A stretch of 32,183 nt of DNA from an uncultured Lachnospiraceae bacterium (GTDB taxonomy: Bacteria > Bacillota > Clostridia > Lachnospirales > Lachnospiraceae): the NCBI GenBank assembly GCA_902790935.1, contig CADATP010000024.1, positions 1 through 32,183 of the forward strand. The letters run 5' to 3'. How positions within the stretch are numbered: the first letter of the stretch is position 1; every line of letters starts with the position of its first letter. Below, piece after piece: positions 12,726-32,013 of this stretch. A model generated the notes under the pieces. It worked only from the letters and a program-made list of their open reading frames with translations, ran no database searches and was not told the origin of the DNA. The position numbers and the translations under genes were made by a program.

Positions 12726-12764
12726 TTAGTTTACGTATTCAGTATACTTATTCAGTTTACTTAT
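12726..12764. repeat. Three tandem 13-bp units next to the fused ATPase stop codon
   Basis: Units TTAGTTTACGTAT, TCAGTATACTTAT and TCAGTTTACTTAT follow each other without gaps just after the end of the oligopeptide ATPase gene. They differ by only two to three bases. No hairpin or known site is recognised in them. Confidence 0.6.
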
Positions 12765-12769
12765 TTAAA

Positions 12770-14365: not shown

Positions 14366-14388
14366 TGTAAAACCTCAATATCAAAAGA

Positions 14389-15207: not shown

Positions 15208-15226
15208 TTTACAGCACCAAGCCTTA

Positions 15227-16186: not shown

Positions 16187-16209
16187 ACCTGTTTTCCTCC
16201 TTTCTGGTG

Positions 16210-17742: not shown

Positions 17743-17800
17743 AGTAAACTCCTCGACTCTTCGAAAAATTACGCCTCTCATTATTCAATTGCCTGTCAAC

Positions 17801-17828
17801 ATTTTAACACAGTTTGATTATTTAGCAA
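17801..17828 (-). promoter_or_regulatory. Candidate promoter of the oligopeptide importer operon
   Basis: On the minus strand TTGCTA (17823-17828) and TAAAAT (17801-17806) are separated by 16 bases, about 60 bases before the lipoprotein start. A second weaker pair (TTGATT, 16 bases, TATACT) lies further upstream, so two start sites are possible. Confidence 0.45.
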
Positions 17829-17911
17829 TAACTATTTCTCGGATAAGTATAATGAAACTCTGTTTTGAATCAATTTGCAATACATTTCTTTACATACAAG
17901 CGCCTCAAACC

Positions 17912-18652
17912 TTATTTTAGTTTGATCTGGCTCATAACATATCCGACTTTATCCTTAATGCAAAGATCAGCATATGAATCTCTTGAAGTCGGAGCCATAT
18001 TGATCACTACGAGCTTATCTCCGCTGAAGTAATCGATAAGTCCCGCCGCCGGATAAACAGCCAAAGAAGTTCCTGCTATGATCAGGACCTGAGCCTGAGA
18101 AATATAGCGGACCGCCTTATTTATTGTATCCTGATTCAAGCCTTCCTCGTACAGGACAACATCGGGTTTTATGGGCGCTCCGCATTCATCGCAAACCGGA
18201 TAGTCCCCTGTGCTGTTTTTTATATAATCAAAATCGAAGAATTTACCGCAATGCTCGCAGTAATTGCGAAGCGTTGAGCCGTGAAGTTCAAGTACCTCTT
18301 TGCTTCCCGCTTTCTGGTGCAGTCCGTCGATATTCTGCGTGATAACAGCCTTAAGCTTACCCGCCTTTTCAAGCTCGGCAAGTTTAAGGTGACAGGCATT
18401 TGGCTCAGCTCCCTCTATAAGCATCTTATTCTTATAGAATCTGTAGAATTCCTTGCGGTTTCTCATATAGAATGTGTGGGAAAGTATTGTCTCCGGAGGG
18501 TAATCGTACTGCTGATTATAAAGACCGTCTACGCTCCTGAAATCAGGTATCCCGCTCTCCGTTGATACACCTGCGCCGCCAAAAAACACGATATTGTCAT
18601 ATCTGTTCACTATTTCGTTTAATTCTTTGATCTTTTCAATACTGCTATCCAT
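17912..18652 (-). CDS. cobB: NAD-dependent protein deacylase, Sir2 family (sirtuin)
   Basis: The 246-aa protein is a compact bacterial sirtuin. It removes acyl groups from lysines using NAD+, giving nicotinamide and O-acyl-ADP-ribose. Visible marks: GGAGVSTESGIPDFR (25-39) for NAD binding, TQNIDGLHQKAG (105-116), the catalytic His in LELHGS (H124), four Zn cysteines at 132, 135, 154 and 157 (CEHC and CDEC), and GTSLAVYPAAGLI near the end. FYRFYKNKM after the cofactor-binding loop is typical of class U/M bacterial forms. No membrane segment is seen. It is a lone gene divergent from the riboswitch-controlled thiT. The name cobB follows common use for bacterial sirtuins; it is not evidence for a cobalamin role. 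Confidence 0.94.
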   Translation of the reverse strand: MDSSIEKIKELNEIVNRYDNIVFFGGAGVSTESGIPDFRSVDGLYNQQYDYPPETILSHTFYMRNRKEFYRFYKNKMLIEGAEPNACHLKLAELEKAGKLKAVITQNIDGLHQKAGSKEVLELHGSTLRNYCEHCGKFFDFDYIKNSTGDYPVCDECGAPIKPDVVLYEEGLNQDTINKAVRYISQAQVLIIAGTSLAVYPAAGLIDYFSGDKLVVINMAPTSRDSYADLCIKDKVGYVMSQIKLK

Positions 18653-18679
18653 CGGTTACCTCCTTTAAAAAATTCCTTC

Positions 18680-18708
18680 TTGACATATTTCAATTCAAAT
18701 ATTAATAT
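18680..18708 (+). promoter_or_regulatory. Candidate promoter of thiT
   Basis: A perfect TTGACA (18680-18685) is followed after 17 bases by TAATAT (18703-18708). Transcription from here would give a leader of about 165 bases that contains the whole TPP riboswitch. Confidence 0.6.
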
Positions 18709-18756
18709 AACTAATCGTGAAATGCAATTAGCGTTCACTCTAAAAATTCATAGCGT

Positions 18757-18875
18757 TGCCAGGGGTGCAAAGGAAATCAGATTTCCGTAACGCTGAGAAA
18801 AGGATGGTGTAAATCTATATGCACTTATCCAAAACCCTTATTACTTGATCCGGTTAATACCGGCGGAAGGAGGCA
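18757..18875 (+). ncRNA. TPP riboswitch (THI element) upstream of thiT
   Basis: The conserved core is present in order: AGGGGTGC, a P3 hairpin with GGAAAT/ATTTCC arms, CTGAGA, an optional extra stem (GGAT.../...ATCC), AACCC closing P2, and then TTGATCCGGTTAATACCGGCGGAAGG, here given in parts as TTGATCCGG, TTAATA and CCGGCGGAAGG, for P4/P5. The outer P1 can form from TGCC (18757-18760) and GGCA (18872-18875). The ribosome site AAGGAGG (18867-18873) is partly within that 3' P1 strand, so ligand binding should hide it and block translation of thiT. No terminator sits between riboswitch and ATG. Confidence 0.95.
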
Positions 18876-18879
18876 TTTA

Positions 18880-19605
18880 ATGTCATTTTTTATTACCCAC
18901 ATCCAGGATCCCGAATGGGGAGACTACTACGAACTTGCAAAGCCCGGCTACATTGCGCTGATCGCCCTTATCATCCTTGCGATCGCCGTAGCTGCCATTA
19001 TCGTAGGCCGCAAGCAGAAAACCGAACGTTTTTCATCCAAAACCTTAGCATTCGCAGGTATCGCACTTGCTCTGGCATTTGCTACTTCATTTGTCAAGCT
19101 TGAGATGCCTATGGGCGGCTCCGTAACCTTATTCTCTATGTTCTTCATCACCTACATCGGATATGTTTACGGAATCAATGTCGGACTTGTAACTGCATTC
19201 GCTTACAGCTTACTTCAGTTTATTCAGTCCGGAGGATCCTATTTCCTTTCTCCTTTCCAGACCTGCTGCGACTATTTCTTCGCATTTACCGCGCTCGGAC
19301 TTTCAGGCCTTTGGTACAAGAAAAAGAACGGCCTTATTATCGGATATATCGTAGCTTGCCTAGTACGCGGATTATTCCACACCATCGGCGGATATATGTA
19401 CTGGATGGACTATATGCCCGACTGGTTCCCCAAGAAACTTACAAATATCTACTCTATCGCTTACAACTACAGCTACATCCTTACTGAGATGGCAGTAACC
19501 GTTGGTATATACTTTATTCCTCCTGTAAGAAAAGCGATTGCCAAGGTTACCGAGATGGCACAGAGCGATACCGCTATTTCCTTCAAAAAAGAAAAAGCAA
19601 AATGA
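18880..19605 (+). CDS. thiT: Energy-coupling-factor thiamine transporter substrate component ThiT
   Basis: The 241-aa membrane protein has an N-terminal span (about 22-43), then the core of six spans typical of ThiT S-components, including TLAFAGIALALAFATSFV, the loop KLEMPMGGSVTLFSMFFI, GFVYG-like YVYGINVGLVTAF and the thiamine-pocket aromatic run GGYMYWMDYMPDWF (about 168-181). ThiT binds thiamine with high affinity and works with the shared EcfAA'T module encoded elsewhere. The TPP riboswitch in front fits this exactly. At 241 aa it is longer than the usual 180-200, because of the extra N-terminal span and a Lys-rich tail (FKKEKAK). Its TGA stop is the first three bases of a repeat unit. 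Confidence 0.93.
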   Translation: MSFFITHIQDPEWGDYYELAKPGYIALIALIILAIAVAAIIVGRKQKTERFSSKTLAFAGIALALAFATSFVKLEMPMGGSVTLFSMFFITYIGYVYGINVGLVTAFAYSLLQFIQSGGSYFLSPFQTCCDYFFAFTALGLSGLWYKKKNGLIIGYIVACLVRGLFHTIGGYMYWMDYMPDWFPKKLTNIYSIAYNYSYILTEMAVTVGIYFIPPVRKAIAKVTEMAQSDTAISFKKEKAK

Positions 19606-19676
19606 CACCCGGGGACAGGGTTGGGGGGTCATTTTTGAATGACACCCCGGGACGGGGTTGGGGGTTCATTTTTGAA
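19603..19676. repeat. Two tandem 37-bp GC-rich palindromic (REP-like) units
   Basis: Unit 1 (19603-19639) and unit 2 (19640-19676) both read TGACACCC, a GGGAC-GGG core, TTGGGGG and TCATTTTTGAA, with only a few differences. Within each, TGAC and GGTCA or similar ends can pair to form a hairpin. Cores of the GGGGAC(G/A)GG type are widely dispersed in Clostridia intergenic regions as REP-like elements. The first unit supplies the thiT stop codon. A related single core (GGGGACGGTTTC) is near 32079. Confidence 0.8.
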
Positions 19677-19689
19677 TCGGCCGGCTTAC

Positions 19690-19731
19690 AAAAAGCTTCA
19701 CTGCGCAGCACCGCGCAGTGAAGCTTTTTTT
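19690..19731 (+). terminator. Strong Rho-independent terminator after thiT
   Basis: Perfect 17-bp arms AAAAAGCTTCACTGCGC (19690-19706) and GCGCAGTGAAGCTTTTT (19713-19729) surround AGCACC, followed by further T residues. Because A and T runs flank both sides, it could work in both directions. Confidence 0.95.
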
Positions 19732-19750
19732 CTATAATTGCAAATAAAGA

Positions 19751-19816: not shown

Positions 19817-20725
19817 ATGAGTAAGATATATTTTGCCCCCATGGAGGGGATTACAACTCCTACCTACAGAAAAGTTCATAAGAAATATTATGGAGGAATC
19901 GATAAATACTTTTCCCCCTTTATCGTAGTCACTAGCACCCATCAACTTAAAAAGAGGGAGACAAGGGAATTCGATCCCTTTGAAGAAAACCTTGTACCTC
20001 AGGTCCTTACACAACGCGGAGAGGATTTCGCCTGGGCCGCAAATATGCTCAAGGGCATGGGATACAAAGAAGTTAATTTAAACCTCGGATGTCCCGCAGC
20101 AACGGTTGTAACCAAAGGAAAAGGCTCCGGACTGTTAAGAGATAAGGACAAGCTACGAAGATTCTTTGAAGAAGTCTTTACCGAAAGCAATCTTCCCGAT
20201 ATTTCGATAAAAACAAGAAGCGGGTTTATCTATCATGAGGAGGCTGAAGAACTGGCTGAGATCTTCGCGGAATTCCCTTTCAAAGAGATCATAATTCACC
20301 CAAGAGTAAGAGAAGAATTCTATCAGGGTAGCCCCAACTTAGATTCATTTAACATCATCAAAAACAAAGCAAAATGCCCTGTTATCTATAACGGCGATAT
20401 ATTTGACATTAACAGGCTCACGGAATGCTATGACGCAGAAGGCAAAGAAGGCATAATGCTCGGAAGAGGACTACTAAGAAATCCTGCCCTTGCGGAAGAA
20501 AAAGAGTTTGATCCTGCGGATAAAAGGCTGCCGGCTTACCTTGATGAACTCTATGATTCCTACGCTGAAGTGCTAAGCGGCGACAGAGACATTCTCTTTA
20601 AGATGAAAGAACTCTGGACATACCTGATAACAGGATTTCATGATAAGAAAGAAGAATACAAAAAGCTCCTTAAGTCCACTACCGCCGCCGACTACAAAGC
20701 AGCGGTAAGAGGGATCATAGGATAA
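19817..20725 (+). CDS. dus: tRNA-dihydrouridine synthase
   Basis: The 302-aa flavoenzyme reduces specific uridines in tRNA to dihydrouridine with NADPH and FMN. The start APMEGITTPTYRKVHKKYYGG is the FMN phosphate-side strand of the TIM barrel. LNLGCPAATVVTKGKGSGLL (residues 88-107) holds the catalytic Cys at 92, and DISIKTRSGF, IIIHPRVREEFYQGSP, VIYNGDI and IMLGRGLLRNP are the expected following strands. The C-terminal helical tRNA-binding domain (about 240-302) is present. It is slightly shorter than E. coli Dus proteins, as is common in Clostridia of this branch. It has its own promoter candidate and a hairpin terminator that reaches into the phosphoesterase gene facing it. Which tRNA position is modified cannot be told. 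Confidence 0.93.
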   Translation: MSKIYFAPMEGITTPTYRKVHKKYYGGIDKYFSPFIVVTSTHQLKKRETREFDPFEENLVPQVLTQRGEDFAWAANMLKGMGYKEVNLNLGCPAATVVTKGKGSGLLRDKDKLRRFFEEVFTESNLPDISIKTRSGFIYHEEAEELAEIFAEFPFKEIIIHPRVREEFYQGSPNLDSFNIIKNKAKCPVIYNGDIFDINRLTECYDAEGKEGIMLGRGLLRNPALAEEKEFDPADKRLPAYLDELYDSYAEVLSGDRDILFKMKELWTYLITGFHDKKEEYKKLLKSTTAADYKAAVRGIIG

Positions 20726-20774: not shown

Positions 20775-21533
20775 TTAGGAGATCCTTATCATCTGCTCGT
20801 AGATAAGGATCTCCTTTTCAGATACATTCACATTGTCGTGATAGTGTCCAAAAAACCACTTTTTATAATTAACACTGTTTTTGACAGACTCAAGAAAATC
20901 CGTTTCCCTATCTGCCTTGTACTTAGAGCTTGAGATGAAAGTCTGTGTACTCGTAGAGCAACAATGAGTGATTATGAAGTCAACCGTGTTATCATGAGCA
21001 CGCAGATTTTTTCTGCCTTCTTCCATCTCTTCTTCACTGGCAAGTTCCTGCTCCCACCAGCTGATATGATTTATCCGATATGGAACATAATCTTCTTCAA
21101 GTTGCTTCCTCTTTCTTCTATAATTCGGATCACTTGTCTCAAGTATCCCGCCACAAATATCATGACTCTTTGCCCCACCAAAAGTAAATATCTTCTTACC
21201 ATCAATTTCGAATACCTGGCCGCGCATCAAATGAAACACATGGGGGCGAATTTCATGTACTTTTCCCCCCTGCCATTCTTTAACAGGGTAAGCATTCAAC
21301 CTATCAAAGTTTTCATGATTTCCGTCAACAAACAAGAGGGTATAGGCCCGGTCTTCAAACCAATCGAGCCAATACTTTTCATTCCTGCTTTCACCTCCGG
21401 TATCCCATACCCCACCAAAATCACCGCAGATGATCACATAATCATCCTTAGTCATTTTCATCTGCTCCGGGAAATTGTCCATATTAAATCTATGTTTAAA
21501 CTCAGCATGAGTATCACCGGTAAGGTATATCAA
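20775..21533 (-). CDS. Calcineurin-like metallophosphoesterase
   Basis: The 252-aa protein shows the full metal-site set of the family: GDTH (D7, H9), CGDFGG (D38), GNHE (N72-H73), ITH (H190) and GHYH (H230, H232). It should hydrolyse phosphomonoesters or diesters with two metals; members act on proteins, nucleotides or nucleic acid. The start is a TTG at 21533, preceded by AGGAGA at good spacing; no ATG is available before the first metal motif. It is the last of ten co-directional genes, 26 bases after the 619-aa membrane gene. No PP2C-type phosphatase is encoded here, so this enzyme could be the one that removes phosphate placed by the kinases, although the fold alone does not show protein substrates. 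Confidence 0.85.
   Translation of the reverse strand: MIYLTGDTHAEFKHRFNMDNFPEQMKMTKDDYVIICGDFGGVWDTGGESRNEKYWLDWFEDRAYTLLFVDGNHENFDRLNAYPVKEWQGGKVHEIRPHVFHLMRGQVFEIDGKKIFTFGGAKSHDICGGILETSDPNYRRKRKQLEEDYVPYRINHISWWEQELASEEEMEEGRKNLRAHDNTVDFIITHCCSTSTQTFISSSKYKADRETDFLESVKNSVNYKKWFFGHYHDNVNVSEKEILIYEQMIRIS
20777..20818 (+). terminator. Terminator of dus formed from the end of the facing phosphoesterase gene
   Basis: AGGAGATCCTTATC (20777-20790) and GATAAGGATCTCCT (20802-20815) are perfect 14-bp arms around an 11-base loop, with TTTT after it on the plus strand. The whole hairpin lies in the last 13 or so codons of the minus-strand phosphoesterase gene, which end in IRIS and the TAA stop. Confidence 0.7.
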
Positions 21534-21559
21534 CGTGTGTCTCCTAAAACAAATCCTGA

Positions 21560-23383
21560 TTAATTTGAAGCGCTTTCAGCCTTCTTTTTTAACTGTTCCA
21601 AATAATATTTCTTTTGTTCTTCACAATAATTCTTAAGCCATTCTTTTATTATGAAATCCTGTGATTTCTTATTATCCTTGCTACTCATCGATTCGGACGT
21701 AATTTCAGAAAACTCATACGTATTTCTAAATGAACGCATTTCTTTTATCAAGTTTCCGTTCGTGTCCATATAATCTGATACTTCTATAAGGTATGTATAC
21801 TCATCAACAATTCCTTTATAATCCGACTCCTCCGAGCATTTAAATAAAATGTTCAAATCTTCCTTTACAGTATTTTTGCATTCCTCAAGACGTTTTTCAG
21901 CATTCTCCATTCTCTTATTCGTTTCATCTTGATCCTCACCTACATCATCTTGTAAAAAGTCCTCATAATAATCAATTTCTCCCTCATACCTATTTAATTC
22001 TTCTCTGAGTTTACCTTGTAAAAATCTTTTGAAATAATCCGGTATTTTTCCTTTTTCTAACTCCGTCCAATATTTCTTTAGGATTGGAAACAATAATGAG
22101 AACAAATCATTTTTCTCGTTTTCTTTCAAGAACGAATAATCATAGTAATATCCGTATTCATCGTGAATACACAGTGTCAATTTAGAGTACGTTCTTATAT
22201 CAAGGTATATTTTTCCATTTTCCTCTTCAGGATTCTTATATATAAACTCCGGCATTTTTGATTTTTGCAAGATATTTATCAATTTTTCAGCGTAATCAAT
22301 CCTATGTGAGCGTATTAATAAATCTTTTAGCTTGAAAAAATAATCCGTAAAGTAAAACCCGGATTTTCCTTTTTCATTGTTATAAATGCTTTCTGCAATA
22401 CCATTAAGATCTTCGTCCAACTCCCAAGGATTCTCTTCATAATCATTCTGATTATCGCTTAGAAGTTCTTTTTCCTGTTCCTCATACTTTTTATCGCACT
22501 CTTCAAGTTGTTGCTCTATATCATCCAGCAAAACATCAGCCACTTTATCTCCAAGCCAAATACGTTCCTTACTACCAATCATCTCTATGATTATTTTGTA
22601 GAATTCATCCTTTTTGTTGACCCATACTCTTTCTAAAACAGGCTCAAAAAGTAATAGTTCCGAATCATTAACATTTTTGAGCATCTTAAAAAATTCTTTT
22701 TTGCGTTTGTCCTTTTTCTCATCCTCTTTTAATGTGTTTTCAATCAAAAACTTTAAATCATCCGTTGCTCTTTCTGTATCGCCATTTTTAATGGCATCAC
22801 CAAAATTAGCAATTGTACGTACATAATACTCATATTGCTTCTCTATGGATGACTGATCATATATGTCTTTTAAATCTTTCATAACTCTGTCTCTGTTTGA
22901 AAAAACTTCTGTAGACATATGAAACAATCTAATAACAGATATCAAGCCATCTATAAAGAACATGGAAAAAGCCACATAGAATGCAGGACTGTCATAAATG
23001 ATTACTGCAATATACGAAATCAACTGTAAACCTAATGAAACATATCCTATGCGACACCATGAAATGAAATCAGGTCTGCTCTTCATCAGCCTTTCGGAAT
23101 CATTCATCCAATATACTTTCTCACTATTGTCTGTCAGCATGTTGAGCATTGATATTCCAAGAAATACTACGCTCATGGACGCGCCCATTAAGGTATGACA
23201 TACATTTAAAAATTCATTGCTGAAAATTTCATTGCTTCCCAGTGGCTCGCCCCTAATAATACCGATAATAGCAGATAACATTACCTGTACAAACACTATA
23301 ACTCCGGAAATAATAATAACTTTTCTCTTTTTCTCTCCCTCCCATTTGTTCTTACGAATCTTTTTCCCATTCTCTTTTTTCAT
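21560..23383 (-). CDS. Four-span membrane protein with a large charged cytoplasmic region, function unknown
   Basis: I chose the ATG at 23383 (MKKENGKKIRKNKWEG); a TTG at 23419 is also in frame but lacks a ribosome site. The product is about 607 aa. After a very basic head come four spans (roughly 22-44, 62-86, 111-129 and 132-152). The remaining 450 residues are highly charged, helical and coiled-coil prone (DDIEQQLEECDKKYEEQEKE, KRMENAEKRLEECKNTVKED). No enzymatic motif is recognised. The gene is clearly AT-richer than the window's metabolic genes. It lies 51 bases after the second kinase gene (15 if the TTG is used) and 26 before the phosphoesterase gene. It may be a scaffold or kinase substrate at the membrane; this is inference. 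Confidence 0.75.
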   Translation of the reverse strand: MKKENGKKIRKNKWEGEKKRKVIIISGVIVFVQVMLSAIIGIIRGEPLGSNEIFSNEFLNVCHTLMGASMSVVFLGISMLNMLTDNSEKVYWMNDSERLMKSRPDFISWCRIGYVSLGLQLISYIAVIIYDSPAFYVAFSMFFIDGLISVIRLFHMSTEVFSNRDRVMKDLKDIYDQSSIEKQYEYYVRTIANFGDAIKNGDTERATDDLKFLIENTLKEDEKKDKRKKEFFKMLKNVNDSELLLFEPVLERVWVNKKDEFYKIIIEMIGSKERIWLGDKVADVLLDDIEQQLEECDKKYEEQEKELLSDNQNDYEENPWELDEDLNGIAESIYNNEKGKSGFYFTDYFFKLKDLLIRSHRIDYAEKLINILQKSKMPEFIYKNPEEENGKIYLDIRTYSKLTLCIHDEYGYYYDYSFLKENEKNDLFSLLFPILKKYWTELEKGKIPDYFKRFLQGKLREELNRYEGEIDYYEDFLQDDVGEDQDETNKRMENAEKRLEECKNTVKEDLNILFKCSEESDYKGIVDEYTYLIEVSDYMDTNGNLIKEMRSFRNTYEFSEITSESMSSKDNKKSQDFIIKEWLKNYCEEQKKYYLEQLKKKAESASN

Positions 23384-23434
23384 TTGTCCTATAAATCCTT
23401 TCTTTAAATAATTCTTCAAATCTGATCATTGTAT

Positions 23435-25159
23435 TTATATTTCAAATTCGCTCATCGCCAGGACATTAAACCTAAATGCAAATACCATATGCACTGCGCC
23501 GCCTACAAGGCCTGCAAGCCAGATCCTGCAGTTTTGAAGCGTCGCAAAAAGAGTCTCACTTCCATGCTCTATGATCAATCTACTAAATGCCGAAGTGTCT
23601 TTATTAAGCGCAATTCCAATAATGATCATTAGTGCAAAAAGCACCACTCCCGACTTAAGCAGAATATTTCTACTGTGATAAATCCTGTTCACAGTTTCGT
23701 TTCTGAAAGAAAGGCACAGGTACTGCATTGCAAATGTAATACCTAACGCAAAAAGCATGATCGGTAACCATTCATATTTCCCTGCTCCCTGCGTTTCGCT
23801 GCTATAAACTCCTGTCAACAAGCTCATAGCCATCCCCAGATAGGCCGTTGTAAGGATCCCTCCAAAGGAGTTAAGGAAAACGACTAAAACAAGACTCACA
23901 AGCTTCCACCATGAAAATCCGCCAACAACAATACTTGCAACTGCCATGACAGCCAGCGGTATCATCATGATCCTCGAAGCTTTCTTTTTATCAAAGACAT
24001 CAAGGACAACCTTGATAATACTAAGGATCAAAATGATAGCCCAGGGCCATTCACCACCGGTTATCTGAGGAACCCTAAATGCTGAAGGCAATATCATTCC
24101 CCCTACCATGGCAAGAAACATTCCCATAACAAATGAGCCTTTTCTTTCCTTACGCCTGCTCTTTATGTTTTGACCATACCTTACGCCCTCTATCTCCCCA
24201 ACAACTTCACTCATGGTTTGATATCGGTCTTCCTGCTTAAAGCGGCACATTTTTTTGATCATGCGATAAAACCGGTTATCCGACCTTTCCGGTCTTGCAA
24301 GTTCAAACTCTTCGTTATACTGACCGGCGATGTTGACCCTGTATCTGTCCGATCCCGGAAAACATAGTTTATTTATGAGAAGATACAGTGTGATCCCAAA
24401 GGAATATACATCTGCAGTTGCATCATATTCTCCAATCCTGCTATCAACTGCCTCCGGAGCTCCATAACCGTTGGTGAAGACTGTTCGTTTATCCTCGACC
24501 CCCTCGATTTCCTCCGACGTATCAAAATCACCAAGCTTATACTTTCTTTCTCTTTTGGAATAAAAGATATTTTCAAGCTTTACATCCCTATGCATTATCC
24601 CTTTCAGATGTAAATTCTCCAAGGCTTTTCCAATTTCGAAGGCAAGCTTGTATATTTCTTTTTTTCTCTTTAGTTTTTTTACTTCAAGAACAGCCTCTCC
24701 ACCGGAAATATGTTTGATGACCGGTGTCAGCCTCTCAATAAGCATAAAATAAAGGTATATTTCATTTTCATTCTGAACTTCGTCCGTTAAAACGTCTTCA
24801 TCCAAAACTTTCTCAGCATGGATTATCTCAAGATCATCATTCAGTTTGATCCTAACACAGTTATGATCAAATACCTTTACCGTGTATTTCTCTATTCCTG
24901 CTGCAGATTCCTGATACTCTATGGTCCGTTTTATACTCTGATAGTTTTTAAACTCGGATTTAAGTCCTATGACTTTTATGGCATACCTGTTATTACGTTT
25001 TCCTTTTTTTGCAGCAAAAACATATCCGGATCCTCCGGATCCGAGACATACAGGCTTATCCTCTTCCATGCTAAAACTGTATTTCTCAAAGGGAAGACCC
25101 AAACGACCTAATTCGGCTATTATTTTAGTTATCTCTTTTTCTGTAAAACGGTTACGCAT
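23435..25159 (-). CDS. Membrane-anchored Ser/Thr protein kinase with DFD variant
   Basis: The 574-aa protein has a eukaryotic-type kinase domain at residues 35-325: glycine loop GSGGSGYVF (40-48), YAIK (K62), catalytic MHRDVKLEN (H190-R191-D192), and GYGAPE (231-236) followed by ADVYSFG. The DFG motif reads DFD (211-213): the metal-binding Asp is kept but Gly is replaced by Asp. The activation segment contains Ser/Thr (TSEE, TVFTNG). From about 340 on come seven to eight hydrophobic spans with short loops, without PASTA repeats, so it is unlike PknB/PrkC. A 25-residue insert before LKRKKEIYKL is unusual. Its ATG overlaps the first kinase gene by 8 bases, so translation is coupled. Signals may be sensed in the membrane. 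Confidence 0.92.
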   Translation of the reverse strand: MRNRFTEKEITKIIAELGRLGLPFEKYSFSMEEDKPVCLGSGGSGYVFAAKKGKRNNRYAIKVIGLKSEFKNYQSIKRTIEYQESAAGIEKYTVKVFDHNCVRIKLNDDLEIIHAEKVLDEDVLTDEVQNENEIYLYFMLIERLTPVIKHISGGEAVLEVKKLKRKKEIYKLAFEIGKALENLHLKGIMHRDVKLENIFYSKRERKYKLGDFDTSEEIEGVEDKRTVFTNGYGAPEAVDSRIGEYDATADVYSFGITLYLLINKLCFPGSDRYRVNIAGQYNEEFELARPERSDNRFYRMIKKMCRFKQEDRYQTMSEVVGEIEGVRYGQNIKSRRKERKGSFVMGMFLAMVGGMILPSAFRVPQITGGEWPWAIILILSIIKVVLDVFDKKKASRIMMIPLAVMAVASIVVGGFSWWKLVSLVLVVFLNSFGGILTTAYLGMAMSLLTGVYSSETQGAGKYEWLPIMLFALGITFAMQYLCLSFRNETVNRIYHSRNILLKSGVVLFALMIIIGIALNKDTSAFSRLIIEHGSETLFATLQNCRIWLAGLVGGAVHMVFAFRFNVLAMSEFEI

Positions 25160-26681
25160 CTTTTTCCTTCGCAGAAATATAACCTATCGATACCACGAAA
25201 AATAGTAAAAAAGTTATCAGAAATGCTACAAAGCATCCCCAGCTAAACACGTGAAATAGCTTCTCATCAAATATCCACGATATCGGAAGCAATTTCAGTA
25301 TACGCCACATGAGCATCGTCGTCGAAGCTCCCCATGATATTTCTCCCGTAAACATAAAAGCACAGAGGATGGTTAAAAATCCTTGCCATGTTGGGCCGGT
25401 ATGTATCATAGATGTTATCGCCAAACCGATGGTTACAAGAGCAAACATGTAATGATACTGCTTCAAGTATTGCATTGCTCCAAGGAATATCAGTGTCACA
25501 GGCAAAAGGATATACCAAAATGATGTCGCTAGATCACTGTTCTTTTGCAGTCCTAAAAATATAAAAAGCATTTCAACCGAAAACGCCACAGCAATATACA
25601 TATTAAAGGATTTCTTTTCTTTTACACCGAATTCTCCAAATATGGGCTTCTCAGCGCTATCCTCTTTTATCTTTTTACCCTTAGCGTTTCTTTCTATTGT
25701 CTGCTTCCTGTACTTAGTTGCTTCTACATATGCTTCAGTAGCAATATCATATTCGTCACCTTCCATACAGGTCTTTTTATTTCTGTTTTCCGTCAGTTCT
25801 GCTCTTATATCTAAAATGGCTTCCGATAAAAGAGCATATCTTTCTTCCGGGTCATATGCGCACATTTTTCGAAGCACTGCAGCGATATTATTCACAGCAT
25901 GCGCAGGTGCCGGGAACATAAATCCCCTGTTATACTGAACCTCGATATCCGGAAAATAATCTGCAGAACCCGGAAAACGAAGGTCGTTCAGCAAAAGATA
26001 TATCACCATTCCAAAAGAATAGATATCGGCATTATATGTATAATTCGGCTGCAGGTTCTTTCCTATCTCAGGAGCACCATAACCATTGGTGTAAACAATG
26101 GTATCCGTAGTATCTGCGATAAGTCTTTTTGTCACACCAAAATCGCTCAGTAAATATTTATCTTCCCTTTCATCATAAAAAATATTCTCAAGCTTTATAT
26201 CCCGGTGCATAACACTTCCGAGATGAGCTTTAATGACCGCCTCTCCGATCTCTTCTATCAGTTTCTTTATTCCCTCAAGATTGTTTAATTTCGGCACATT
26301 GATGGTAGCTTTTCCAAACTTATCTTGAGCTACTACCGGGGTATATTTGTTCATAAGGATAAAGAATGTGCTACCCACTTCGCTCTTGATCTCTTTTGTA
26401 TCCACTATATCAGCTATAAACTCGCACTCATTGGCAAGAATTCTTTGAATCATTACAGTCTCATGTACCTGTTTTAAGGCAGTATCATCGAGCCCGGGGA
26501 TTACTTTTACCGCATACCTTTTTGAGGAATCATTTTCCGAATACATCTCATAAACAAAGGATGTTTTTCCTCTCCCCTGCAAACAAAGGAAGCCATTCTC
26601 CGTAACGGGCATAACCCCGGGGAAAAGCTTCCTTTCTTCGCATAAAGACATTATATAGTTTTCAAGCATTTCTCTTTCCAA
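25152..26681 (-). CDS. Membrane-anchored Ser/Thr protein kinase
   Basis: The 509-aa protein carries an intact kinase domain (about 30-300): glycine loop GRGKTSFVYE (36-45), YAVK (K59), MHRDIKLEN (H159-R160-D161), DFG (180-182) and GYGAPE (200-205), then ADIYSFG. The activation loop ADTTDTIVYTNG is Thr-rich, suiting autophosphorylation and FHA recognition. A basic, polar linker (300-358) leads to about five to six spans (360-505). No extracellular sensor domain is seen. The window offers two starts: TTG at 26681 with GGGAGAG, or ATG four codons later (MLENYIM). It begins 18 bases after the XRE gene and overlaps the next kinase gene. It is the sister of that kinase in domain order but differs strongly in sequence. 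Confidence 0.93.
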   Translation of the reverse strand: MEREMLENYIMSLCEERKLFPGVMPVTENGFLCLQGRGKTSFVYEMYSENDSSKRYAVKVIPGLDDTALKQVHETVMIQRILANECEFIADIVDTKEIKSEVGSTFFILMNKYTPVVAQDKFGKATINVPKLNNLEGIKKLIEEIGEAVIKAHLGSVMHRDIKLENIFYDEREDKYLLSDFGVTKRLIADTTDTIVYTNGYGAPEIGKNLQPNYTYNADIYSFGMVIYLLLNDLRFPGSADYFPDIEVQYNRGFMFPAPAHAVNNIAAVLRKMCAYDPEERYALLSEAILDIRAELTENRNKKTCMEGDEYDIATEAYVEATKYRKQTIERNAKGKKIKEDSAEKPIFGEFGVKEKKSFNMYIAVAFSVEMLFIFLGLQKNSDLATSFWYILLPVTLIFLGAMQYLKQYHYMFALVTIGLAITSMIHTGPTWQGFLTILCAFMFTGEISWGASTTMLMWRILKLLPISWIFDEKLFHVFSWGCFVAFLITFLLFFVVSIGYISAKEKDA

Positions 26682-26699
26682 CTGTCAGTCTCTCCCAGT

Positions 26700-26945
26700 C
26701 TATCTGTCGCTCATATCTCTGTCCTCGGAAACGAGGATATCATCTATCCCCGTTCCGAAAAGCCTACTCAGTGCATATAGATTATCTACACTGGGAAGAC
26801 TTTCTCCCCTCTGCCATTTATAGACAGCCTGAGGAGCTTCGAAGCCCATAAACTCCATTACCTCTTCGACTGAGAGCTTATTCTCAACTCTCAGTTTTTT
26901 AATCCTCTCGCCGGTTGCTTTAAGGTCAATAATAGGATAATTCAT
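26700..26945 (-). CDS. XRE-family transcriptional regulator
   Basis: The 81-aa protein is a single Cro/C1-type HTH: GERIKKLRVENKLSVEEVMEF, then the recognition region APQAVYKWQRGESLPSVDNLYALSRLFG and a short acidic tail (DDILVSEDRDMSDR). It probably binds DNA as a dimer. AGGAGGCAGG precedes the ATG. A perfect 8-bp-arm palindrome lies 24 bases before the ATG, a likely autoregulatory site. It sits inside the kinase locus, 79 bases after the FHA gene and 18 before the first kinase gene, so it may drive a second transcript for the kinase half. The acidic Ser/Asp-containing tail could be a kinase target (inference). Confidence 0.88.
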   Translation of the reverse strand: MNYPIIDLKATGERIKKLRVENKLSVEEVMEFMGFEAPQAVYKWQRGESLPSVDNLYALSRLFGTGIDDILVSEDRDMSDR

Positions 26946-26968
26946 ATGCCTGCCTCCTAAATCTCATC

Positions 26969-26988
26969 AATCAACTGATAAGTTGATT
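26969..26988. promoter_or_regulatory. Perfect palindrome before the XRE gene (candidate operator)
   Basis: AATCAACT-GATA-AGTTGATT is a perfect inverted repeat with 8-bp arms. It lies between the FHA stop and the XRE start. Size and position fit a Cro/C1-type operator. A similar but imperfect site (ATCAAT, seven bases, GTTGAT) overlaps the candidate promoter of the whole locus at 31395-31413. Confidence 0.6.
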
Positions 26989-27024
26989 CTACAGATTCAA
27001 AAGGGGCCGTTTTTCAGCTAAAGT

Positions 27025-27390
27025 TTACACTGCTTTTTCTGTGTATTTGATCCATACCGTTTTATCATCATTCGAAGACTCGGATCTGGCTCCAAGCATC
27101 AGTACATCACCATCGTGTAGCATCACCGGTCTTGTCCGTCCGCCTATTCCGGGCTTGATCTTTCTCCCGTTATAGATGGTGGCATTGGTGCACTTCTTAT
27201 CGTAATAATACCATGTTCCCATTATATTCATAAACACACCATGCTGTCTGCTAACCGTTGGCGATCTTAAGACAATGCCTTCTCCATCTATAGAGACTCT
27301 TCCAACCGGCCAGACACTTCTCGAATCAAGGCATACTGTATTCTCTTTACCATTTTCCTGTATGATTAGATAATTCCCTGTTGATCCCAT
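27025..27390 (-). CDS. FHA-domain phosphothreonine-binding protein
   Basis: I chose the ATG at 27390 (MGSTGNYLII, GAGG upstream) over a longer reading that would overlap the preceding gene by 68 bases. The 121-aa protein is almost only an FHA domain: GR (30-31), SRQHG (47-51), a TNAT turn (68-71) and NG (74-75), which match the conserved phosphothreonine pocket G-R ... S-x-x-H ... [ST]-N-x-T ... N-G. FHA domains recognise pThr in partner proteins, often autophosphorylated kinases. No other domain is attached, so it could act as a small adaptor linking the kinases to the HTH, ClpP or ATPase proteins. It begins 10 bases after the 377-aa gene. Confidence 0.9.
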   Translation of the reverse strand: MGSTGNYLIIQENGKENTVCLDSRSVWPVGRVSIDGEGIVLRSPTVSRQHGVFMNIMGTWYYYDKKCTNATIYNGRKIKPGIGGRTRPVMLHDGDVLMLGARSESSNDDKTVWIKYTEKAV

Positions 27391-27400
27391 CCCGTTACCC

Positions 27401-28534
27401 TCATCTTTCCGCTTCAGGATCCGGTATCCTGATCTCTGAAATAAAATCCGTGATTTCCGGTATGTCAAGGTCAGCCATTATCTTGTAAGCATAGTCACAT
27501 AATCCGGTAGGGTCGTATCCGTCCTCGCCTTTTTCAAGGCCAAGATTCAGCTCCGCATCATTTAGAACATAAATCACCACACTCTCAAAAATGTTTTTTG
27601 CGCACAAGTGCTCCATATGGGCTATATCCAGCATTTCATTTATCTGATCGTAGTCCATGCTGAGATGAAAACCAATGGATATTATCTTATTTCTTGTGGG
27701 ATACCATTTGTTCTGCCTGATTGCAGAGATACACTGCCTTAATGATGAGCTCCAACCCTGAGCCTCTGCCATGGCACTTGTGGATGTATTAAGATAATCA
27801 TCCTTATTTGCCTCCAGATTGACCAGGATGTAGCTATAAAGTTTCTTAAAGCTCATGGCAAATACAGCGCTATATCTGTCCACAAAAACAGCAAGCTCAT
27901 CTTTATCTCCGACCTCTGACAGTTTTCTTTCCAAAGTTGTTGTCGCAAGGTCTTCAGCCGGACCATCATCCTCTGAAAGGATCCTTGATCTGATCTCCCC
28001 AAGGATATCCTCATAAATATCATACAAAGAGCCGCCTTCGGCAGTAAGACTTTCCGCATGTTCGATCACGAAAAAACATACCGCATCTTCAAGGCTCTTG
28101 GCATATAATCCGGGGTATCCTCCATACCTTTGAAGCAAACGATTGATCTCATCTTTGCCATATCCTGCAACAAGACCTATCCGAATGAATCTTTCACGAG
28201 AATTGGGTATTGCACCTTCCAGCCATTTATCAAGCATGACGCGACTGATACCACACTTTTTTGCAAAATCTGTCTTGGTTAATCCGGAACCGTTAAATAT
28301 GTCTCCAATTTTTTCGCGCCACTGTTCACTCTGCGTTTTGAGAAGCGGAATGATTTCTTCCTTCAGCTCTTCAATGCTTTCGCATCTGCTCTCCTTATCT
28401 TCAAGATCAAGAGTGGAGAATTCCATATCCATCTCGTCGGATGAAAGTTTTTCAAGAGCTTTCCCGTATTTATTATTTGTTTCTTTGATTGCTTCTTTGA
28501 TATCCATGTATAACCCCTTTTTTTCATTATACAT
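27401..28534 (-). CDS. HTH protein with an internal helical duplication, function unknown
   Basis: The 377-aa protein has an acidic helical head (1-80), an XRE-like HTH (about 85-110, TKTDFAKKCGISRVMLDKWL), and two related helical segments: 112-161 (RERFIRIGLVAGYGKDEINR onwards) and 281-329 (RNKIISIGFHLSMDYDQINE onwards). Both share R-x(4)-I-G-x(6)-D-x-I-N-x-x-L and then A-K-x(4)-[ED]-x-V-x(3)-V, about 15 identities over 50 residues. The second copy is preceded by a degenerate HTH-like stretch (SSSLRQCISAIRQN). So the whole HTH-helical unit may have doubled. A second start 27 bases downstream (MDIKEA, AAGGGG upstream) is possible. It lies 14 bases after clpP and 10 before the FHA gene. A DNA-binding or adaptor role is inferred. 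Confidence 0.75.
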   Translation of the reverse strand: MYNEKKGLYMDIKEAIKETNNKYGKALEKLSSDEMDMEFSTLDLEDKESRCESIEELKEEIIPLLKTQSEQWREKIGDIFNGSGLTKTDFAKKCGISRVMLDKWLEGAIPNSRERFIRIGLVAGYGKDEINRLLQRYGGYPGLYAKSLEDAVCFFVIEHAESLTAEGGSLYDIYEDILGEIRSRILSEDDGPAEDLATTTLERKLSEVGDKDELAVFVDRYSAVFAMSFKKLYSYILVNLEANKDDYLNTSTSAMAEAQGWSSSLRQCISAIRQNKWYPTRNKIISIGFHLSMDYDQINEMLDIAHMEHLCAKNIFESVVIYVLNDAELNLGLEKGEDGYDPTGLCDYAYKIMADLDIPEITDFISEIRIPDPEAER

Positions 28535-28548
28535 CGAATTCCTTTTTT

Positions 28549-29196
28549 CTAAAACAGATTCCGTATTTCATCACAGATTCCGAATTCAACAGCTTCTTCT
28601 GCGTTCATAAAGTTGTCGAATCCCGTCGCCTTATCGACTTCTTCCAAACTTTTTCCTGTATGTTTCGAAAGGATTGAATTGGTAATCTTCTTTGTCTCGA
28701 GGATTGAATCGGCGGTTTTCTTTATGGAGCTGGCGGATCCTCCCATTCCTCCTTCTATAAGAGGTTCATGGATCATCACCTTGGAATGGGGAAGAATGTA
28801 TCTTCTTCCCTTCTGTCCTCCCGCCAGGATTATCGCACCCATGCTGGCTGCCATCCCTATACAATACATATCAATGGGGAAAGGCGCCGCCTGTATCACA
28901 TCATAAATGAGAAGTCCGGCATTTACTGAGCCACCGGGGCTATTGATATAGATGGTAACAGGCTCGTCAGATTCTGCCAAATACTCTATCTCCGATACAA
29001 AATCAATTGCCATCTGGTCCGTTACTTCTCCTGTAAGGAAAAGCTTTCTTTTATCAAAATGTCTCGTCTGGAGCTCTATTTCGTGAATCCCGCTGCTTGT
29101 TTCCTCCGTAAACTGAGGAATCCACTTTCTCGTATTGTCAGCGCCTCCAGCTGCTCTAACCTGCTCGTTATTCCCAAAAACGTAATATTCCTTCAT
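28549..29196 (-). CDS. ClpP-family serine peptidase
   Basis: The 215-aa protein has the crotonase-like ClpP fold and an intact triad: Ser118 in MAASMGA, His143 in KVMIHEP and Asp194 in GFDNFM. INSPGGSVNAGLLIYDVIQ is the oxyanion-side strand. Compared with housekeeping ClpP the N-terminus is longer (about 45 residues before RKLFLTGEV) and the C-terminal tail is very short (ends EIRNLF). These differences and the setting suggest a dedicated paralogue, not the housekeeping enzyme. ClpP needs a AAA+ unfoldase such as ClpX; none is in the window, so it must borrow one or use the VirD4-like ATPase (speculative). AAAGGAG precedes the ATG. Third gene of the kinase locus. Confidence 0.9.
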   Translation of the reverse strand: MKEYYVFGNNEQVRAAGGADNTRKWIPQFTEETSSGIHEIELQTRHFDKRKLFLTGEVTDQMAIDFVSEIEYLAESDEPVTIYINSPGGSVNAGLLIYDVIQAAPFPIDMYCIGMAASMGAIILAGGQKGRRYILPHSKVMIHEPLIEGGMGGSASSIKKTADSILETKKITNSILSKHTGKSLEEVDKATGFDNFMNAEEAVEFGICDEIRNLF

Positions 29197-29257
29197 ATCC
29201 TGTATACTCCTTTATATTTTCTTTTTGTTTGTTTCTTTTTTGCCTTTCCCTTTTCTG

Positions 29258-30004
29258 TCAAGGATCCTCGTCATCGAAGGCATCAACCATATTGCATAAT
29301 TTCAAGATTTCATCCTGAGACAGCATCTCTGTAGGCGCAGGCTCATCTAAAAACTCCGCTTCATAATCATCGAGATTAGCCTCAAAGTCATCGGGCGTAA
29401 TTAAAAGCACTTTGAATACGGCAGTTCTCACTTCTTCGTCGCAATCACATATTTCATCTTCAAAACATTTGATCAAGAAGCTTATATATTCCTCAGGGCA
29501 AGCAAATTCAGGCATGCCGGCAATATCCGAGGCAGTCTTGATCATGTTCCCTTCCTTATCATAAGCAAATCTCAATACTTCCATCTCTACATATGACAAT
29601 GAATCAATAATGATCTGTGCTTCAGAAAGCATTTTTCCATAGTAAGCTGAACAAGGAACTCTAATAGCTTCTTTGAAGATTCTCATGGTCTCATCGATAA
29701 ACCACTTATCAAATCTATTTATGATCCCATCGGGATCAAGTGCTCCCTCTTTGGAAAATTTGCTAAACCAGTTGTTGTCATAGCAAGCACTCCTGTACTG
29801 CCTCTCAGCCGTCCTTATCAGTTTCTCCATCTCTTTGGGATCCTCTGCATACTTCATAGCACTTCGTATCATGAAAGGTCCACAGTCATAAAAGCGGCAC
29901 ATGGTCTCACTGATGGCAGCCTTCGCTCCCTCCTCGATCATTCCACCATATGAGCAAAGCTTTTCAAGTTCGCGTATTTCAATTTCCATCTCTATCCTTT
30001 TCAT
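29258..30004 (-). CDS. Helical protein of unknown function with a weak sigma-region-4-like stretch
   Basis: The 248-aa product is acidic and alpha-helical, without signal peptide or membrane span. Residues about 135-180 (IDSLSYVEMEVLRFAYDKEG, then TASDIAGM and a helix with FLIKCFEDEI) resemble the spacing of sigma-70 region 4 ('L-x-x-x-E-x-x-V-L-R-x-x-Y' followed by a putative HTH), but the match is weak. The N-terminal half has several Cys, Tyr and Trp (CRFYDCG, CYDNNWF). The C-terminus is very acidic (DAFDDEDP). It lies 58 bases after the VirD4-like gene and 61 before clpP. I do not recognise the family. Confidence 0.65.
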   Translation of the reverse strand: MKRIEMEIEIRELEKLCSYGGMIEEGAKAAISETMCRFYDCGPFMIRSAMKYAEDPKEMEKLIRTAERQYRSACYDNNWFSKFSKEGALDPDGIINRFDKWFIDETMRIFKEAIRVPCSAYYGKMLSEAQIIIDSLSYVEMEVLRFAYDKEGNMIKTASDIAGMPEFACPEEYISFLIKCFEDEICDCDEEVRTAVFKVLLITPDDFEANLDDYEAEFLDEPAPTEMLSQDEILKLCNMVDAFDDEDP

Positions 30005-30062
30005 GATCTATTCCTCTCTTAAAGTGCTGTATTCCTTGGGGGAGTTTTCCAAATATACCGGA

Positions 30063-31325
30063 CTATGCCAATTGCATAGCCCTAATATATTCGGGATCTT
30101 CCAAAGTACGATACCTCTTTGCAAACCTGGGCTGCATTCCCCTTCTGAATACGATTACCTGCTCCTTAGGAAGCCCTATTACCTGTTCCAGGGGTTTATT
30201 TATCTTCCGCGAAATGTTAAAGCATGTATCGTAATCCATTCCACCCATATATACATATGTATCGCAGTTATTGATGATGGTCTTTCCTCCGCTCTCCCCA
30301 TACATCGCAAAAAGCTGTGACTCGCTCTGGAGCAAAAGCGATACACTGATGCCGGCCGCCCTGAAGATACTTATATAATTCTCAAAATTTACAATTCTGC
30401 TTCCACAGGCAAAATCATCACAGATGATATGTACCGGGATTTCAAGTCTTCCATCTTCGCTTGATTCGGCAGTCTCAAATAAGCAACGGAACATATCTGA
30501 GTACATAATGTTTATAAAGTTGTACAAAGCTGTATTCATGGGGGATGTCTTTATAAACAATATGGTTTTCTTTTCGCCCAAGCTCGCGAAATCTATCTTT
30601 CTCTCTTTGGAAACAAACTTTTTTATGTTCTCCGACATAAACTTGTCCATCGCATTGTTTGCACAGCTATGGATCGTACTGGCTGTCTTTACCGGTGCGG
30701 TACTGTATGTGCGCCATAACATGCATGCCTGATTACCGGGTTTCTGTTTTTCCAGGTTTTCAAAAGCCGCATCCAATCTGGTCCTAGGGTAAGATCCTGT
30801 GTATTTGGCGTTGAGATTTCTGAAAAGCTCGACAGAATCGACAAGTGTAGCCTTCTTTCCTCCGCTTTTCTCATTTTCCCTATTTAACTGGAAAATGGAT
30901 CCCACCATGCTTTCAGCGGATTCATCCCAAAAAGGATCATAATTGCCTCCCCGGAATTCCTTACCCCCCTCTAACATGTTTTTAACCAGATGGATAACGT
31001 CCTCATCACTTTTTATGTAATCAAAGGGGTCATAACCAACGGTGCTTTTCTCGGGATTGACAAAATCAATCAGTTCCACTTCATATCCGCGCTCTTCAAA
31101 AAGCTTGCTGAATTTATTCATTATAGAACTTTTGGCGATGGGAACAACAATGCTTGAATCGTATGTATGTAAAAGTCTCGGAATACAGAGCGACATGGTC
31201 TTTCCGCATCCGGTTGAACCAACTACTATTTCATTAAGATTAATTCCTGTTTCCGATGAATCCGCCGGATATACCATATTGTCCGCCAGACAGGTCAGGT
31301 TTCTGTTTATATTTGTGATCTCCAT
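30063..31325 (-). CDS. VirD4/TraG-like ATPase without membrane domain
   Basis: The 420-aa protein belongs to the T4 coupling protein / TraG-TraD_C family: Walker A GSTGCGKT (36-43), the FVNPEKSTVGYDPFDYI strand region (88-104), the Walker B-like HIICDDF (299-305), and the C-terminal LLQSESQLFAMYGE, IINNCDTYVYMGGMD and RRGMQP signatures (330-398). It is shorter than conjugative VirD4 (about 600 aa) and has no N-terminal membrane helices. The usual Walker B Asp-Glu is Asp-Asp. Conjugative proteins pump DNA or protein through type IV secretion; no relaxase, VirB4 or channel gene is near, so its job here must differ or act in trans. First gene of the ten-gene locus, GGAGGAC before the ATG. Confidence 0.85.
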   Translation of the reverse strand: MEITNINRNLTCLADNMVYPADSSETGINLNEIVVGSTGCGKTMSLCIPRLLHTYDSSIVVPIAKSSIMNKFSKLFEERGYEVELIDFVNPEKSTVGYDPFDYIKSDEDVIHLVKNMLEGGKEFRGGNYDPFWDESAESMVGSIFQLNRENEKSGGKKATLVDSVELFRNLNAKYTGSYPRTRLDAAFENLEKQKPGNQACMLWRTYSTAPVKTASTIHSCANNAMDKFMSENIKKFVSKERKIDFASLGEKKTILFIKTSPMNTALYNFINIMYSDMFRCLFETAESSEDGRLEIPVHIICDDFACGSRIVNFENYISIFRAAGISVSLLLQSESQLFAMYGESGGKTIINNCDTYVYMGGMDYDTCFNISRKINKPLEQVIGLPKEQVIVFRRGMQPRFAKRYRTLEDPEYIRAMQLA

Positions 31326-31397
31326 AATACTGTCCTCCGCTTTCCGTTATCGATCGTTTAATCATCGATTCGTGTACTTGTTTTGCTTTCTGTAATC

Positions 31398-31426
31398 AAT
31401 ATAACGGGTTGATCATACAAAGTCAC
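31398..31426 (-). promoter_or_regulatory. Candidate promoter of the kinase/ClpP/VirD4-like locus
   Basis: On the minus strand GTGACT (31421-31426) and TATATT (31398-31403) are spaced by 17 bases, 73 bases before the first start codon. An imperfect dyad (ATCAAT, 7 bases, GTTGAT; 31395-31413) covers the -10 region and resembles the palindrome before the XRE gene. Confidence 0.5.
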
Positions 31427-31453
31427 TGAACCTGCAGTTCAAAATAATGGCAT

Positions 31454-31484
31454 AAAAAAACACCCTTACTATAAAGTAAGGGTG
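31454..31484 (-). terminator. Terminator insulating the locus from the right
   Basis: CACCCTTACT (31461-31470) and AGTAAGGGTG (31475-31484) form a perfect 10-bp stem around ATAA; on the minus strand a run of seven T residues follows. It would stop leftward transcripts just before the locus promoter. No leftward gene lies between it and the window's right end. Confidence 0.85.
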
Positions 31485-31524: not shown

Positions 31525-32013
31525 GTGGGCATTGTTGTGGGCGTGAGCAAAAAGGATGATAAAGAAACCACCAAGGCGACTTCGACCACGGCTTCCACCA
31601 CTGCCGAAAGTACGACAGAATCCACTACCGCGACAACTTCTACCACAAAAGAGCAGAGCACGCAGGCGCAAAGCACCACGGAAGGCACGACTGCCGAGAC
31701 CACCGAGAGTGAGGATGATAAAGAATCCCGCTTTAACTATGCACTTGAGAAAGCGCGCTCACTCAGTGATTTAATGCACCTTTCCAAACAGGGCATTTAC
31801 AATGAACTGGTTTCACCCGGCGGTGAAAAGTTAAAGGCGGATGCCGCACAGTATGCGATTGACCACTTAAAAACGAATTATAAAGCAAACGCCCTTACAA
31901 AAGCACAAGAGTATTCGATGGACGGGCTTGATGAGGATGAGATTTACAATAAACTTGTAAATGAAGATTTGTTTACCGAGTCCGAAGCGGATTACGCCGT
32001 AAGCCATATGTAA
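31525..32013 (+). CDS. Thr/Ser-rich protein with Ltp-type repeats, 5' end apparently lost
   Basis: From the first possible start (GTG 31525) the product is 162 aa: a short hydrophobic start, a Thr/Ser/Glu-rich linker (about 13-65), then two copies of a helical unit (about 70-120 and 121-162; second copy NALTKAQEYSMDGLDEDEIY) typical of the Ltp family (PF07553), known from host-surface lipoproteins and the phage TP-J34 superinfection exclusion protein. The open frame continues upstream to a stop at 31477 and encodes a hydrophobic helix (FLYNILFFGIIVGIVVGV), but it has no ATG and no ribosome site. So the membrane-anchored head seems truncated, or starts at a non-standard codon. The repeats and a clear terminator after the gene are intact. 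It may be a remnant. Confidence 0.7.
   Translation: MGIVVGVSKKDDKETTKATSTTASTTAESTTESTTATTSTTKEQSTQAQSTTEGTTAETTESEDDKESRFNYALEKARSLSDLMHLSKQGIYNELVSPGGEKLKADAAQYAIDHLKTNYKANALTKAQEYSMDGLDEDEIYNKLVNEDLFTESEADYAVSHM

Follow-up and report, generated by a model that had tools for sequence, protein, structure and literature searches.

Paired ClpP and VirD4-type ATPase genes beside a kinase–FHA module in an acquired Lachnospiraceae island

The stretch analysed here is a 32,183-nucleotide contig of an uncultured Lachnospiraceae bacterium (assembly GCA_902790935.1, contig 24, CADATP010000024.1; hereafter the window), from a genome of 2.28 Mb that is 82.7% complete. We analysed a run of ten open reading frames (ORFs) in this window, all on the minus strand and extending from 31325 down to 20775, which a first-pass annotation had placed correctly and had interpreted as one signalling system. 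The locus is an acquired island in which two separable modules come together. Module B comprises a ClpP peptidase, a VirD4-type ATPase and a small regulator, XRE81, whereas module A comprises a helix-turn-helix (HTH)-like protein, HTH377, an FHA protein and two Ser/Thr kinases, STK1 and STK2. The strongest feature of the locus, which the first-pass annotation had missed, is that VirD4 and ClpP form a tight pair.

The genes are arranged in the order VirD4-u248-ClpP-HTH377-FHA-XRE81-STK1-STK2, followed by the peripheral genes for a membrane protein (mem619) and a metallophosphoesterase. Reading from VirD4 towards the metallophosphoesterase, the intergenic gaps are 58, 61, 14, −68, 79, 18, −8, 15 and 26 bases. 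The largest gap, of 79 bases, agrees with the earlier limit of about 80, whereas two overlaps (−68 and −8) are present in the listed frames in place of the single one reported. The 68-base overlap between HTH377 and FHA disappears if FHA begins at the ATG at 27390, which is probably its start. A hairpin and a minus-strand T-run (31461–31484) lie upstream of VirD4, which is therefore probably the first gene. The leader (31326–31484, minus strand) is a probable promoter region; promoter-like matches in it were no commoner than in shuffled sequences.

VirD4 (30063–31325) is a soluble ATPase of the VirD4/TraG type that matches the T4SS-DNA_transf domain (PF02534, 7e-36) and carries the Walker A motif GSTGCGKT and the Walker B motif DDFA. 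ClpP (28549–29196; PF00574, 1e-53) has the catalytic residues Ser118, His143 and Asp194, and matches approximately 107 ClpP sequences of the PDB at E 1e-10 or better, in keeping with the Clp protease fold. The two genes are separated here by u248 (29258–30004), which has no Pfam match. These assignments, together with Pfam matches to both kinases and the FHA protein and the hydrophobic stretches of STK1 and STK2, bear out the gene identities proposed in the first-pass annotation.

Profile searches with ClpP and with VirD4 across 299 genomes of the family identified a ClpP subfamily that scores above the housekeeping ClpPs and directly adjoins a VirD4 of 395–506 residues. At least 20 of the 299 genomes carry the pair, which was found in 31 loci overall, from several families; 15 of these 31 loci had been selected because their ClpP and VirD4 matches were adjacent. 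It was present in all 20 loci of one batch (15 picked for adjacent hits, five for a compact VirD4), in two further loci picked for a compact VirD4 (L153 and L154), in the window, and in L008 and L045. ClpP was also adjacent to each of the 13 pair-type VirD4s that were fetched without a known ClpP neighbour, namely L148–L154 from the family, L203–L207 from a search of 391 genomes of the class and L251 from a search of 299 genomes of the phylum. L148–L152, G153:C22 and G368:C38 had been chosen for their compact VirD4, and no adjacent ClpP had been listed for them. Outside the family, high-scoring VirD4s had ClpP next door in 5/5 cases at the level of the class and 1/1 at the level of the phylum. 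Among control VirD4s, conjugative or other, none of 24 had a ClpP neighbour (0/18 in L155–L172 and 0/6 in L208–L213); these controls include short VirD4 frames of other kinds (L155–L160, 373–459 residues). The designation "pair-type" was defined post hoc by a high profile score, the lack of a membrane part and a D-D Walker B motif. Chance co-location of ClpP and VirD4 is not plausible. No description of such a pair was found in the open-access PMC literature, the only literature searched.

The paired VirD4s differ from conjugative coupling proteins in several respects. The lysine and threonine of Walker A are kept in all 25 paired VirD4s, and Walker B reads D-D-F-A in 25/25 in comparison with D-E in 15/15 conjugative VirD4s, from an alignment that left out three of the 18 controls (L159, L161 and L166); L207 has DDFS. 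No hydrophobic segment was identified in 22 of 23 paired VirD4s, including that of the window; the exception is L148, at residue 142. Like the CD1115-type VirD4/TraG proteins, the island VirD4 contains the PF02534 and TraG-D_C domains, and its best structural match is TrwB without the first 70 residues. In contrast to them, it lacks the membrane domain, has the D-D Walker B motif, scores below the cut-off of the CD1115 model (234.6 bits against 250), is partnered with ClpP and has no conjugation genes around it among the window genes scanned. A PDB sequence search with VirD4 returned no match. The AlphaFold model, which is weak, matched TrwB without its first 70 residues in a fold search, then Cag-beta, and then HerA proteins, SIR2/HerA entries included.

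The paired ClpPs are likewise distinct from their housekeeping counterparts. Serine and histidine of the catalytic triad are conserved in 30/30 sequences, and the third position is aspartate in 27 and asparagine in three (L203–L205). None of the 30 has F, Y or W at the position equivalent to F82 (one has His, and the window protein has Ala), whereas all 16 housekeeping ClpPs have F or Y; the equivalent of R170 is likewise absent from 30/30 and present in 16/16. We take the former to be the aromatic docking-cleft residue for the IGF loop of AAA+ partners and the latter to be a ring-contact arginine. In the ClpP tree the 16 housekeeping sequences form one clade with 100/100 support and the 24 paired ones included fall outside it. 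Distances in the ClpP tree correlate with those in the VirD4 tree (rho 0.74, p 0.0005, 28 pairs). Compared with ClpXP and ClpCP, the island thus shares the ClpP fold, the catalytic residues and a ring-ATPase gene beside the peptidase, but its putative motor belongs to the VirD4/TraG class and not to the AAA+ Clps, the paired ClpPs lack the docking-cleft aromatic and the ring-contact arginine, and Pfam searches of the ten island proteins returned no AAA+ Clp match.

XRE81 (26700–26945; PF01381, 3e-9) lies inside module A in the window. Because its relatives (40–71% identity) adjoin the pair in L045, L133, L134, L135, L136 and L140, we assigned it to module B; no relative was found in G011. Other genes were observed next to individual pairs. 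In L134, a C-terminal remnant of a second VirD4 (L134:10778–10996), 57% identical to the window VirD4 over 54 residues, lies upstream of ClpP in addition to a full VirD4 gene on the downstream side, which points to replacement of the partner. Genes for YbjN/CesT-like chaperones, matched weakly around the Pfam cut-off, stand directly beside the pair at L140:8429–9004 and L145:4353–4940; their products are possible substrate adaptors. A protein kinase gene of a different kind lies directly upstream of the pair at L139:7608–8783, with a TIR-LRR gene further upstream. In another family a conserved HTH-like protein of 533–596 residues is encoded upstream of the pair (L203:99–1889 and L205:4211–5812).

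Module A begins with HTH377 (27401–28534), an all-helical protein with sub-threshold HTH matches only, whose structural model (predicted local distance difference test, pLDDT, of 77) gave no Foldseek match below E 0.2. It is followed by the FHA protein (27025–27468; PF00498, 5e-11) and, after XRE81, by STK1 (25152–26681; PF00069, 2e-26) and STK2 (23435–25159; PF00069, 4e-31), both with C-terminal membrane segments. Strongly hydrophobic stretches were detected in STK1, STK2 and mem619, and none in VirD4 or ClpP. The kinases carry Hanks-type motifs corresponding to VAIK, HRD and DFG: AVKV, HRDIKLEN and DFG in STK1, and AIKV, HRDVKLEN and DFD, which replaces DFG, in STK2. Neither has a PASTA match in Pfam.

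Searches with HTH377 and reading of the loci identified 12 distinct Lachnospiraceae core loci in which HTH377 precedes FHA: the window, L008 (G011/P6A3), L045 (XBB2008, G441), L046, L047 (G363), L048, L049, L051 (G168), L054 (G218), L056 (G164), L057 (G153) and L059 (G387). Both STK1 and STK2 are present in eight of them. The contig ends inside the first kinase of L047 and inside the FHA gene of L048, L051 has one kinase of the STK type, and the kinase of L056 is of a different sort and has TPR repeats. More distant HTH377 relatives adjoin kinases in additional loci. GrpE and HSP70 genes adjoin module A in L046 and L057, and in L054/L216 it is accompanied by an AAA_2/ClpB_D2-small ATPase, a second FHA protein and PP2C; in G218 the ATPase and the PP2C phosphatase follow module A at L216:8105–10868. 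Overall, ClpP–VirD4 or chaperone/Hsp100-like neighbours occur at six of the ten A loci that are uncut inside the module, or seven when L049 is included; the flanks were Pfam-scanned for relevant-looking genes only, and this figure is a raw count. Methyltransferases are encoded near the A locus of G168.

Module A adjoins module B in three species, each with its own gene order. The window order is interleaved, whereas G011 has ClpP-VirD4-HTH377-FHA-STK1-STK2 and XBB2008 has HTH377-FHA-STK1-STK2-XRE81-ClpP-VirD4. In L049, the end of a VirD4 gene lies at the contig edge, in the same orientation as HTH377 and 1.5 kb upstream of it; this fragment shares 74% identity with the XBB2008 VirD4 across 35 residues and matched no conjugative control VirD4. 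About 0.007 loci with A beside B would be expected by chance, in a rough estimate that disregards common descent and is based on random placement, about 2,800 genes and a reach of 10 genes. In L134 and L133, which hold the closest relatives of the ClpPs of the window and of G011, respectively, the sequence read contains no module A. Given the differing orders, L049 and the lack of module A in L133 and L134, we favour either repeated joining or joining followed by loss over one frozen block; and since the sets recur in other species, the gene set is more than chance. The proposal that a kinase/FHA relay is joined to a ClpP/VirD4 output therefore stands in part: the association is non-random in three species and L049, but it is not one fixed system, as the kinase cassette is present in only three of the 31 pair loci in the sequence read. 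Similarly, sets of these genes recur elsewhere and are not merely scattered, yet their order differs and the ten-gene set was not found again. We rejected the single ten-gene system in favour of two recurring modules with extras; for u248, mem619 and the phosphoesterase, no full-length relative was found in the other fetched loci.

Measured over 1-kb windows, GC content between 21001 and 31000 is 31–43%, in comparison with 39–48% in the remaining windows. The island is accessory in nature. Relatives of STK1 (E ≤ 1e-30) were found in two of 30 genomes of the genus, G000 and G011, and HTH377 matched in seven of 143 relatives, strongly, beside G000, only in G011 (48% identity) and in the more distant G059 (26%). 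G013, the nearest relative found, is 96.1% identical to the window over 10006–19743 and lacks the island at that point. Its dus gene, which in the window forms the island edge (19817–20725), is inverted and only about 78% identical (about 85% in G029); after it come large genes that, judged by eye, are of the AddA/AddB kind. This comparison indicates that the dus/island segment varies between close relatives. A plasmid or phage module is unsupported: VirD4 matches in phages (32 records) and plasmids (1,072 records) were all below 60% identity, and the plasmid search with HTH377 gave no match. Of two VirD4 matches inspected, the Monoglobus one is ordinary conjugation and the phage one carries no annotation, so that the pair may also occur in phages.

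To our knowledge, AAA+ Clp/Hsp100 unfoldases drive energy-dependent ClpP in bacteria, and motors of the VirD4 type work with secretion machines. Our preferred reading, to which we assign a probability of roughly 0.45, is that module B encodes an ATP-dependent protease with a repurposed coupling-ATPase motor and that module A controls it. We infer a physical ClpP–VirD4 complex, a protein as its substrate, and control by the kinases. A soluble VirD4-type ring ATPase, freed from the membrane, would replace ClpX or ClpC as the motor and thread the substrate into its own dedicated ClpP; as an analogy with TrwB suggests, the face of VirD4 that is usually directed toward the membrane would contact the ClpP ring. 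The altered ClpP cleft and the altered VirD4 Walker B motif fit such a re-engineered partnership. Module A would detect a membrane signal and phosphorylate Ser/Thr residues on targets or on HTH377, and the FHA protein would read the phospho mark, so that module A may control module B or direct it to targets much as phospho-arginine does for ClpC-ClpP. In the McsB/ClpC pathway, phospho-arginine is reported to activate ClpC (PMC12583610), which puts a ClpP protease under the direction of a phosphorylation mark; the analogy is our proposal, and the island differs in having Ser/Thr kinases and an FHA protein, with no McsB or ClpC in the locus. We are more tentative about the broader statement that a ring motor of the VirD4/FtsK-HerA class has taken ClpP into service in several Clostridia-like families and that the resulting protease is steered by membrane Ser/Thr kinases and FHA in at least three species.

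A number of observations weigh against this protease reading. The ClpP–VirD4 complex and its activity are predictions from sequence, and the known cargoes of VirD4-family motors are DNA and proteins for secretion. In the window the VirD4 and ClpP genes are 866 bases apart with u248 between them, and their products belong to different sub-branches of the respective trees, so that a partner was swapped in this lineage. The AlphaFold model of VirD4, built from three sequences, is poor (pLDDT 54). Eight of the 12 A loci, two of them cut by contig ends, have no ClpP or VirD4 in the available sequence, and 28 of the 31 B loci have no kinase cassette in the sequence read, L139 having a different kinase; because A mostly occurs without B and B mostly without A, A cannot be a general controller of B. 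Finally, the CRISPR-Cas and TIR neighbours of some pairs fit a defence role equally.

Such a role is possible and constitutes the main, serious rival, although we consider it rather unlikely. Module B would then be an anti-phage complex like SIR2-HerA or DUF4297-HerA, in which a VirD4/HerA-superfamily ATPase that senses foreign DNA licenses its attached effector, ClpP, to cleave proteins of the cell, and the kinases act as an alarm. The weak VirD4 model does match HerA, SIR2/HerA entries included, albeit after TrwB and Cag-beta, and the island is absent from the nearest relative found. CRISPR-Cas genes are near three of the 20 scanned pair loci (L142 and L143, type III-D; L144, type I-B), and two (L139 and L141) have TIR proteins nearby, but these are raw counts, L142 and L143 are sister loci, and the remaining neighbours of the 20 loci appear mostly metabolic by eye. 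The PADLOC scan of neighbours covered 122 of 149 size-filtered references (185 before filtering), the 27 dropped by hand being mostly short or antisense ORFs. In PADLOC 2023 no model matched VirD4 or ClpP, and the kinases matched only the kinase domains of mad6, MkoA, PD-T4-6 and similar entries. Apart from the G168 locus with its methyltransferases, the other A loci adjoin chaperones and not defence genes. As described in PMC12198126, SIR2-HerA and HerA-DUF4297 also pair an ATPase of the FtsK/HerA superfamily with an effector gene; in the island the effector is ClpP, the ATPase belongs to the VirD4 branch and a role in defence is hypothetical.

The gene content also invites comparison with the nucleoside triphosphate (NTP)-dependent conflict systems of the MoxR-vWA kind, which likewise mix NTPase, peptidase, kinase and FHA components (PMC7159879); YbjN/CesT-like chaperone genes near two pairs add to the likeness. 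The names VirD4 and TraG do not appear in that paper. Consistent with the first-pass annotation, the window genes scanned have no match to PP2C, vWA, TerD or conjugation families other than VirD4 itself, nor to MoxR, caspase or trypsin, which sets the island apart from both these and the Ter/MoxR-vWA systems, although PP2C is present in the related A locus L216.

In L142 (1731–10224) and L143 (1015–13900) the pairs stand beside type III-D genes (Cas7/Cas5_IIId, Cas10d and CARF-HEPN), and in both a WYL protein of about 1,000 residues is encoded just upstream of ClpP. In L144 (366–13388) the pair is near type I-B Cas5b/Cas8b genes and a gene for a macro-domain/HTH protein; a vWA-like protein there was recognised by eye only and has no Pfam match.

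Less probable than a defence role is that modules A and B are unrelated accessory modules at a shared variable site, with ClpP and VirD4 cooperating while the kinases control something else. Each module mostly occurs without the other, G153 carries module A on contig 27 and module B on contigs 22 and 38, and the site is variable within the genus. Nevertheless, module A lies beside module B in three species and a partial fourth, in differing orders and far above the rough expectation of about 0.007, and in the window the genes interleave, with XRE81 of module B inside module A. The proposal that VirD4 was left behind by a conjugative element, with ClpP as a passenger, is very improbable and was rejected, since VirD4, though clearly homologous to CD1115-type coupling proteins, has no membrane domain and a conserved D-D in place of the D-E Walker B motif, ClpP is its partner in 31/31 pair-type loci of several families and is absent beside the control VirD4s, and no relaxase, VirB4 or PrgI match was identified among the 29 window genes scanned.

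Whatever its function, the ClpP–VirD4 pair is a clear gene module that can be recognised by a soluble VirD4 with a D-D Walker B motif, and which the tools used here label as a "VirD4-like conjugal transfer protein" and a "Clp protease". If the protease reading is correct, the constancy of the pair would mean that FtsK/HerA-class motors can drive a proteolytic chamber, and would define a new class of energy-dependent protease and, in bacteria, a degradation pathway marked by phospho-Ser/Thr. The locus makes it testable whether phospho-Ser/Thr marks read by FHA select bacterial proteins for destruction.

The two peripheral genes of the island complete the run. The metallophosphoesterase (20775–21533) matches PF00149 (6e-10), and mem619 (21560–23419) has a sub-threshold Pfam match only, together with one weak match (22%) to a protein of 740 residues beside the pair in L136. 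At the opposite end, a gene for an Ltp-type surface lipoprotein (PF07553, 8e-25) at 31525–32013 of the window adjoins the island on the opposite strand.

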